Shown here piece after piece: positions 17,112 through 18,841 of a stretch of 64,000 nucleotides of DNA. The stretch spans positions 349,501 through 413,500 of the forward strand of contig CAJJBE010000002.1 in assembly GCA_905182335.1 (NCBI GenBank). Direction: 5' to 3'. Below the pieces are notes generated by a model, which was not told where the DNA came from, did not search any database, and worked only from the letters and a program-made list of their open reading frames with translations. Every line of letters begins with the position of its first letter. Position 1 is the stretch's first letter. The stretch comes from Flavobacteriales bacterium UBA4466. GTDB lineage: Bacteria; Bacteroidota; Bacteroidia; Flavobacteriales_D; Crocinitomicaceae. The position numbers and the translations under genes are program-made.

Positions 17112-17765
17112 TTAATATTCAATATCCAAATTGAATTTGTCCTTTAATGTGTGTAAGTTAGGATTTTTTTGCGCAAGTGAAGCAAATTTATCTTTCCCTG
17201 TTTGAAACTTAACTTCGGCTTCTTGATTTTTAGAAACCTCCATTTTTAAATCTATGAGGTAATTTTTCACCTCAGCTCTAATATAATCTATTAATTCTCC
17301 AAGGAACGGCTTTATATAATCAATTTGAACTTGGTTGTCTACAACTAAAACGTATTCATGATCACTGACTTGTTTTGGATCTCGCTTAATTAGAGCATTA
17401 TAAATGGTCTCTTTTCGTTTTTCTTTCATTTCGAAAGCAAACCTCCTCCAGGCCATTTTAAGATCGTCTATGCTGTATTCGTTCTTAGGCAGATTGTCAA
17501 TGTCAAACCCTTTCTCTTCATTAATTTCTTCCGTTTTCTGAAGCATTTTCTTAATCGAAATAGCACTTGTCCTAACTTGTCCTGATGGGGAAGTCATAAT
17601 ACGAGGTGCTTTCTTTTGCATAAAAACTTTCTTAGGTTCTTTTTTGACAGTAGGCTTTACTATAATTTTTTTGGTTAAACCTCTAAGGTTTTGATTCGAG
17701 AATGGAATTATGTCAACCGAATCAGTTAAGATTTTTTTTTTTCGAGCTCCTGGGTAATGGAACAC
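17112..17765 (-). CDS. dnaX: DnaX tau-specific C-terminal tail, in the -1 frame of dnaX
   Basis: This frame overlaps the end of dnaX by 40 bp and continues from its A-run. Its N-terminal 11 codons (MFHYPG and so on) are the -1 reading of dnaX itself, so it is probably not an independent gene. Residues after the A-run show a basic linker (KKEPKKVFMQKK) and a conserved-looking domain with DLKMAWRRFAFEMK, QIDYIKPFLGEL and LIDLKMEVSK, the pattern of Bacteroidota DnaX tails. The tau tail normally binds the DNA polymerase III alpha subunit and the helicase. Joining it to dnaX by a -1 shift at the A-run would give a 576-residue tau. The alternative is a real indel or an error in the homopolymer. Confidence 0.8.
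   Translation of the reverse strand: MFHYPGARKKKILTDSVDIIPFSNQNLRGLTKKIIVKPTVKKEPKKVFMQKKAPRIMTSPSGQVRTSAISIKKMLQKTEEINEEKGFDIDNLPKNEYSIDDLKMAWRRFAFEMKEKRKETIYNALIKRDPKQVSDHEYVLVVDNQVQIDYIKPFLGELIDYIRAEVKNYLIDLKMEVSKNQEAEVKFQTGKDKFASLAQKNPNLHTLKDKFNLDIEY
17713..17751 (-). promoter_or_regulatory. dnaX: Programmed frameshift or transcriptional slippage site in dnaX
   Basis: Reading the minus strand, an AGGAG (17751-17747) lies 4 nt before a run of 11 A (17742-17732). The zero frame reads GAA AAA AAA AAA TCT TAA and stops at once. Directly after the A-run a hairpin TTAACTG-ATT-CGGTTGA (17729-17713) can form, with two G-U pairs. The order Shine-Dalgarno, slippery A tract, stem-loop parallels the E. 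coli dnaX -1 site. The long homopolymer also suits polymerase slippage as in Thermus dnaX. Confidence 0.8.
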
Positions 17766-18841
17766 AATTGCATGAGGGCCATTTCGACCAGGAGTCGTTG
17801 GTTTTTTGATGATTTGTATTCAACATCTGCCTTACTTAGAACACCTAGCGCACGAACTAAATGATTTGCATCAATTTCTTTCGATTGATCAATGTATTTT
17901 TGCTGAATAGACTCGCTTACTTCAAGTAATTGAGCCGTTCTTACATCTTTACATACAAGTAAGTTTCTATAGTGATCAGCTAAACCTACTATAAAGTTGT
18001 GAGGATCAAATCCACGCTCTATGATATCATTAAGTAGAAGTAGTCCATTTGGAATATCTTCTTTCAACGCACTTTCTATGATACGGAAATAGTAATCATA
18101 ATCAAGAATGTTTAAATTCTCAATAACATTTTCATAGGTAACAGTATTACCTGAAAAAGTAACAATCTGATCGAAAATTGACAGTGCATCTCTCAATGCT
18201 CCATCAGCTTTTTGAGCAATTATGTGTAAAGCATCAGGCTCAGTCGTAATACTTTCTTTTTCAGCAATTGATGCTAAATGACTGGCAATATCCTTTACCT
18301 TAATCCTAGAGAAATCAAATGTTTGGCAACGAGAAAGTATCGTAGGAATTATTTTATGCTTTTCAGTTGTTGCAAGAATGAAAATTGCATGCTTTGGTGG
18401 TTCTTCTAATGTCTTAAGGAAAGCATTGAAGGCAGAAGCAGTGAGCATGTGGACCTCATCAATGATATATACTTTATAATCTCCTAGTTGGGGTGGAATT
18501 CGAACTTGATCTATTAAGTTCCGTATTTCATCAACTCCATTATTTGATGCAGCATCTAACTCATAAACATTTAAGGAAGCTCCAGAATTAAATGACTCAC
18601 ATGATTCACATTTGTCACAGGCTTCAATTGTCTCGGATCGATTAAAGCAATTAATCGTTTTTGCTAATATTCTAGCTGTAGATGTTTTTCCTACACCGCG
18701 AGACCCACAAAATAGAAAAGCTTGTGCTAAGTGATCATTTTTTATACCATTACGCAAAGTTGAGGTAATCGACTTTTGACCAACAACTGTGTCGAAGGTC
18801 TGGGGACGATATTTTCTTGCGGATACAACAAAATCATTCAT
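17726..18841 (-). CDS. dnaX: DNA polymerase III subunit gamma (zero-frame product of dnaX)
   Basis: Clamp-loader ATPase of the replicative polymerase. The 371-residue zero frame contains the AAA+ core: Walker A GSRGVGKT (46-53), a zinc module with Cys65, Cys75, Cys78 and Cys81, Walker B IIDEVH (126-131), and the SRC motif (170-172), followed by the collar domain. It ends QELEKKKS directly after the A-run, before any tau-specific region. This is gamma length; most Bacteroidota DnaX proteins are longer. A -1 shift yields the tau form. The ATG at 18841 is 5 nt after a TAACTTTG box. Confidence 0.93.
   Translation of the reverse strand: MNDFVVSARKYRPQTFDTVVGQKSITSTLRNGIKNDHLAQAFLFCGSRGVGKTSTARILAKTINCFNRSETIEACDKCESCESFNSGASLNVYELDAASNNGVDEIRNLIDQVRIPPQLGDYKVYIIDEVHMLTASAFNAFLKTLEEPPKHAIFILATTEKHKIIPTILSRCQTFDFSRIKVKDIASHLASIAEKESITTEPDALHIIAQKADGALRDALSIFDQIVTFSGNTVTYENVIENLNILDYDYYFRIIESALKEDIPNGLLLLNDIIERGFDPHNFIVGLADHYRNLLVCKDVRTAQLLEVSESIQQKYIDQSKEIDANHLVRALGVLSKADVEYKSSKNQRLLVEMALMQLCSITQELEKKKS

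Follow-up and report, generated by a model that had tools for sequence, protein, structure and literature searches.

A conserved A-run at the gamma/tau border of Bacteroidota dnaX points to programmed transcriptional slippage

Results

The dnaX locus

The window, as we call the whole stretch of 64,000 nucleotides analysed here, carries on its minus strand a dnaX gene divided between two frames. The gamma frame (17726..18841, minus strand; 371 amino acids), read from transcripts with 11 A's (or 11 ± 3n), closes with GAG CTC GAA AAA AAA AAA TCT TAA, where the sense strand bears a run of 11 A's (17732..17742) and the TAA (17726..17728) ends gamma in the templated frame. With one extra A (12 A's in the transcript), the reading frame enters a tau tail (17112..17731, minus strand) that stays open to 17112, giving a tau of 367 + 209 = 576 residues; with one A fewer, it ends at a TGA (17722..17724). 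The two frames that do not lead to tau stop one and two codons after the run. A sequence-only reading of this DNA had described a zero-frame stop directly after 11 A's on the minus strand and a 576-residue tau reached by a −1 shift or one added A; the run is present at 17742..17732, the arithmetic holds, and all details that it listed are in place.

The amino-terminal part of the product matched models for DNA_pol3_delta2, the ATPase lid and gamma3 (domain III), as well as TIGR02397 (dnaX_nterm). The tail matched only the end of NCBIfam PRK14971 (positions 436–613, E = 1.5e-20), that is, its carboxy terminus, and a family search gave no Pfam match for it. The gamma and tail frames overlap and are joined at a poly-A stretch, the two-ORF arrangement of the Antonov type. 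In a structure model, the part of the tail encoded by 17112–17500 (minus strand; about tail residues 86–177) is confidently predicted to form an alpha/beta domain, whose structure weakly resembles DnaA domain I, DciA and KH-like folds. Close relatives of the window's genome are labelled Crocinitomicaceae or Flavobacteriales, labels from which we infer its family name; those of two close MAGs (Chryseobacterium gleum and Chitinophaga pinensis) look wrong.

Within a single genome, such a split could also be an ordinary frameshift mutation, or an error in sequencing a homopolymer, in a gene that has, or had, one frame, and two relatives do read through with 11 A's (L015, and L054, which is the same locus as L214). 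The family at large argues otherwise. Across 60 genomes (the window's own and 59 relatives), dnaX of the genus and family is mostly an open frame of 374–428 amino acids, the exceptions being one long frame of 587 amino acids (G001) and fragmentary or broken copies in G003, G030 and G032. In a wider sample of the order, only G001 and G192 (595 amino acids) exceeded 450 amino acids among the entries listed, all of which come from the family, and the identical split recurs at the same A-run across the family. Runs there are 10, 11 or 13 A's long; six relatives with 11 A's (L004, L007, L025, L031, L244 and L252) lack one base between run and stop, and the relative with 13 A's (L218) lacks three, so that the extra A's are offset and the frame relation of the 10-A loci is kept. 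Given this compensation among 10-, 11- and 13-A relatives, the window's 11 A's are not a simple homopolymer error. Relatives with a single frame and no A-run, which the sequence-only reading had named as grounds for abandoning recoding, were not found in the window's family. The same reading had allowed for a fixed mutation or a sequencing error; conservation of the split and of the run rules this out, and we give it next to no credence.

Distribution of the A-run

To gauge the spread of the run, we compiled 250 Bacteroidota dnaX loci in three sets. The first (130 loci) comprised the window's own locus, its relatives and 80 named loci from a scan of species genomes; the second (80 loci) held 40 from class Bacteroidia and 40, partly chosen, from other Bacteroidota classes; and the third added 40 further loci from the window's family. 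The total includes some duplicates: L054, for example, contains L214, the same organism entered with and without a name. A run of at least nine A's lay near the same place, at the gamma/tau border, in 207 of the 250 loci (116/130, 51/80 and 40/40; 167/210 for the first two sets). Within the second set, it was present in 37 of 40 loci from class Bacteroidia versus 14 of the 40 partly chosen ones from other classes. Named carriers include Pedobacter, Mucilaginibacter, Sphingobacterium, Hymenobacter, Rufibacter, Dyadobacter, Chitinophaga and Terrimonas, and further Aureispira, Aquimarina, Aequorivita, Flagellimonas, Halpernia and Proteiniphilum. Aquimarina sp. RZ0 and Flavicella marina show dnaX in its split form. 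Conservation of the A-run was one of the comparisons that the sequence-only reading had proposed as support for recoding, and here the relatives bear it out.

Thinning the first two sets to below 75% identity, which was meant to remove copies, yielded 110 representatives, each with a run of at least nine A's. The run measured 10 A's in 79 of them, 9 in 20, 11 in 10 and 13 in one, and elsewhere in these 110 coding sequences we found one other run of at least nine A's (9 A's long) in 142,487 nt. Among species overall, run length varies from 9 to 13, as would be expected if it mutated within populations and so switched tau on and off by DNA-level phase variation, and the frame switches described below probably arose through slippage in the DNA. 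The sharp peak at 10 A's, however, holds across divergent genera and in every frame class. Because tau belongs to the essential replicase, an OFF state without slippage should moreover be lethal, which makes phase variation a very improbable account of the run.

The run is absent from 14 of the 130 first-set loci, 13 of which have Bacteroidales-type titles. Nine of the 14 (L074, L080, L093, L095, L098, L110, L111, L127 and L129) carry a single uninterrupted dnaX of 566–668 amino acids, eight of them under Bacteroidales-type titles, and in such loci gamma may have been lost or may be made otherwise. In two Bacteroidales MAGs (L123 and L132), dnaX is interrupted close to the gamma/tau border, and the vicinity holds no run of six or more A's; the interruption could reflect faulty assembly, decay or a site of a different kind.

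Frames leading to tau

We searched the 207 loci with a profile of tails from the window's family and found a homologous tail in 191 of 208 long frames, which came from 206 of the 207 loci; 17 long frames were unmatched. The homologous tail is reached with one extra A in 108 loci, in the templated frame in 76 and with one A fewer in seven, all seven with matches at E < 1e-30. Templated-frame tau with 11 A's occurs twice within the window's family, in the L015 and L054 (L214) loci mentioned above. On a quick tree of 109 representatives (161 columns, half of the inner branches unsupported), the frame state changed at least 21 times, and the well-supported branches alone force at least five changes of the templated-frame label.

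These counts bear on whether the tail might instead be translated from its own start, giving gamma and a free tail as two separate proteins. The tail frame does open at a GTG (17765), but in 76 loci gamma and this tail form one continuous frame and the split shifts among directions, so that separate translation is barely credible. According to Antonov et al. 2013 (PMC3711429), in the parts of that paper compared, ribosomal frameshifting keeps its direction among orthologues and transcriptional realignment does not. Since the direction differs among Bacteroidota dnaX orthologues, the event would be transcriptional by this criterion.

The two wrong frames are also closed more tightly after the run than elsewhere. 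Both stop within six codons past the run in 85 of the 110 representatives versus 16% of other positions in the same genes. In most loci of the family the templated stop lies about one codon past the run, and nearly all close the third frame early, 37 of 79 sequences (two odd sequences left out) by the early TGA seen in the window. Of the 42 sequences that lack this TGA, 41 have a stop in the four codons that follow, compared with 13 of the 37 with the TGA (Fisher P = 6e-10, naive to relatedness; a relatedness-aware test, with five supported pairs only, was underpowered and not significant). Third-frame closure counts against a −1 ribosomal shift, because such a shift never enters the third frame whereas slippage does. 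Taken together, the changing direction, the length and purity of the A-run and the closure of the wrong frames point to transcriptional slippage rather than −1 ribosomal frameshifting.

Hairpins around the run

Immediately upstream of the run, the window's transcript has a potential hairpin, GUUCC-N8-GGAGC (17746..17763, minus strand, with an extra pair 17765/17744), whose 3′ arm ends 3 nt before the run (−6.4 kcal/mol, z = −2.4). Of 76 distinct sequences from the family, 59 have all five pairs intact and 74 have four or more. The pair −17/−8 is the most variable of the hairpin; it is paired in 65 of 76 sequences versus 38 expected, and has the top corrected mutual information of 630 column pairs, with covariation within the family not significant in a phylogeny-aware test that was underpowered. 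Base −17 occupies the third, freely variable position of a serine codon (TCN).

An AGGAG 4 nt before the run (17751..17747), pointed out in the sequence-only reading, is present, and four of its bases (17750..17747) fall in the 3′ arm of this hairpin. Its second base, −8, reads G in 39, A in 23, T in 14 and C in 2 of 78 sequences and tracks base −17, so the motif is not kept as a Shine–Dalgarno stimulator of the E. coli kind; judged by this variation, it is better read as part of the hairpin. The relatives, by the comparison proposed earlier, thus keep the A-run and not the AGGAG as such.

Stems of at least 5 bp ending 0–3 nt before the run occur in 41 of the 110 representatives, against a mean of 9.1 (maximum 17) in 39 upstream control windows and of 7.0 (maximum 13) in downstream controls. 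They are found in 35 of 84 Bacteroidia outside the family (control 6.6, maximum 14), in 6 of 13 representatives within it and in none of 13 from classes other than Bacteroidia. As sequence comparisons go, the candidate upstream hairpin is therefore strongly enriched and precisely placed; it is not universal, since the strict test is passed by only 41 of 110 and by none of the 13 outside Bacteroidia. Elsewhere its predicted arms differ in sequence at the same place, as in Rufibacter (10 bp, −17.4 kcal/mol) and in the CUCCAUC/GAUGGAG types of Flavobacteriaceae. Measured against shuffles at 116 loci, the mean z was −1.17 for the 32 nt before the run, −0.81 for positions −64 to −32 and −0.17 for the 32 nt after it.

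The 7-bp downstream hairpin with two wobble pairs that had been noted 2 nt past the run also exists (17713..17729, minus strand; −3.7 kcal/mol, z = −0.8). Only 5 of 68 relatives have it whole and 24 have at least six of its seven pairs; among these 68 none of its pairs was kept clearly beyond expectation. We thus found no conserved downstream stem-loop of the E. coli type.

Ribosomal frameshifting as an unlikely alternative

In E. coli, dnaX uses −1 programmed ribosomal frameshifting with A_AAA_AAG, a Shine–Dalgarno element and a downstream stem-loop. The gene and the product pair are the same here, and the elements of a comparable −1 shift on A_AAA_AAA, aided by pairing of AGGAG with 16S rRNA and by the downstream hairpin, are all present in the window. 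The layout that needs one extra A equals a −1 frame, and ten A's hold an A_AAA_AAN heptamer in any phase. Unlike in E. coli, however, none of the three signals is conserved. The base after the run is G in 42, C in 39 and T in 29 of the 110 representatives, which show no preference for A_AAA_AAG, and the window itself reads A_AAA_AAA in place of the E. coli slip site. The AGGAG has its second base as G in just 39 of 78 sequences and follows the opposite hairpin arm, the downstream hairpin is not conserved, and the third frame is kept closed. Seven loci need the opposite direction to reach tails that are homologous at E < 1e-30, and ten A's are kept although seven would suffice.

As described in the parts of PMC8710568 compared, the anti-Shine–Dalgarno sequence is hidden in Bacteroidia ribosomes, and Weeksellaceae have an altered one and no prfB frameshift. 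Halpernia (L131, 11 A's) and its sister on the tree (L161, 11 A's) nonetheless keep the run with a split frame; the family tail profile did not find the L131 tail. A Shine–Dalgarno route is unlikely because the anti-Shine–Dalgarno sequence of Bacteroidia is buried and that of Weeksellaceae altered, and yet Halpernia and its sister keep the split run. Overall, we regard E. coli-type frameshifting as unlikely, while in lineages that need one extra A, −1 ribosomal slippage at A_AAA_AAN is possible, alone or in addition. The sequence-only reading had proposed a programmed gamma/tau switch by either the E. coli or the Thermus route: Thermus-like slippage fits the comparative evidence, and the E. 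coli-like signals go unsupported.

Discussion

Programmed transcriptional slippage is our preferred explanation of how dnaX makes both gamma and tau, with a probability that we put at about 0.84. RNA polymerase would copy about ten A's, at which point the hybrid in its active site would be nearly all A:T; the length of the run approximately matches the 9–10 bp of the RNA–DNA hybrid within RNA polymerase (PMC5009743, Fig. 18). The nascent RNA could then slip, giving transcripts with more or fewer A's, from which ordinary translation would produce tau in one frame class and gamma, stopped a few codons on, in the other two. In the window, tau would require one A above the templated number. In many relatives, a predicted hairpin would sit just behind the hybrid, placed as in a terminator but with A's after it; such a hairpin probably promotes slipping, a role suggested by its place and enrichment and by analogy with the hairpin-stimulated slippage of an insertion element. 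The sequences themselves show the run, the frames, the stops, the place of the hairpin and their conservation, and from these we infer that the polymerase slips, that the hairpin stimulates the slip and that both proteins are made. Because slippage would feed all three frames, the templated frame could switch repeatedly among 0, +1 and −1 with both products still available.

A bolder reading, towards which we lean with little more than even confidence, is that in most Bacteroidia, and perhaps already in the phylum's ancestor, an essential replication gene passes through a frame-neutral, ten-A transcriptional randomiser, often set against a terminator-like nascent-RNA hairpin, with the templated frame drifting among 0, +1 and −1 without loss of gamma or tau. 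If true, this would be, to our knowledge, the first case of a conserved cellular gene with a slippage element coupled to a hairpin. Penno et al. in 2015 reportedly described hairpin-stimulated slippage in an IS630-type element of Roseiflexus. Hairpin-stimulated polymerase slippage is likewise described for an insertion element in Fig. 18 of PMC5009743. As far as these accounts were compared, the likeness lies in a nascent RNA hairpin next to the RNA–DNA hybrid, which stimulates slipping there and would do so here; an RNA hairpin adjoins the run on its 5′ side in the window and in the same 41 representatives. The Roseiflexus motif, by contrast, is U5C5 in a transposase gene, and the present one is an A-run in an essential replication gene.

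Two other precedents concern dnaX itself. In Thermus thermophilus, dnaX undergoes transcriptional slippage at nine A's (Larsen et al. 2000, as described in PMC1088944). On that description, both systems have an A-run in dnaX, tau from one length class and a stop near the run in the other frames. They differ in that tau is templated in Thermus whereas the window needs one extra A, other Bacteroidota having it templated (76 of the 191 loci with a homologous tail), and the run here is 10–11 long. The window thus has a run of about nine or more A's and stops in both non-tau frames, as Thermus does, and lacks its templated tau. Antonov et al. 2013 (PMC3711429) reported two-ORF dnaX in 17 genes from 12 genera, nine of them with 10 A's, and proposed transcriptional realignment. 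As in the present loci, gamma ends there in the templated frame, a −1 shift leads to tau and runs of ten A's occur, and the ten-A genes of that study may include Bacteroidetes; its shift goes in one direction, and the parts compared hold no hairpin or both-direction evidence for dnaX.

Our literature search found no description, for dnaX, of a phylum-wide spread, of a templated frame that switches repeatedly and in both directions, or of an upstream hairpin. As far as the literature was searched, then, the breadth, the repeated frame switching and the upstream hairpin are new, and two-ORF dnaX with 10 A's was already published (Antonov et al. 2013). The pattern suggests that a means of making both gamma and tau has been retained in most of the Bacteroidia sampled, a point of relevance to the debate over the necessity of gamma. 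It accounts for the broken appearance of dnaX in many genomes of Bacteroidota, in which a split tau could be mistaken for a pseudogene or an error, and it provides many natural pairs of hairpin and A-run for the study of RNA polymerase slippage induced by nascent hairpins.

Two minor observations concern A-runs in other settings. In L109, a Chitinophagales MAG, a long stem (GUGAUUUUAG ... CUAAAAUCAC, at about 1080–1140) appears by eye to enclose the A-run in its loop rather than to precede it as a hairpin. The window's own genome contains 38 exact ten-A runs, only one of which lies in a long frame on its own strand with a 6-bp stem just before it (L260, C2:207715-208515; run 208110-208121, minus strand). 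The product of L260 looks, by eye, like a membrane flippase or polysaccharide transporter, and the run could be due to chance or could be a second slippage site.
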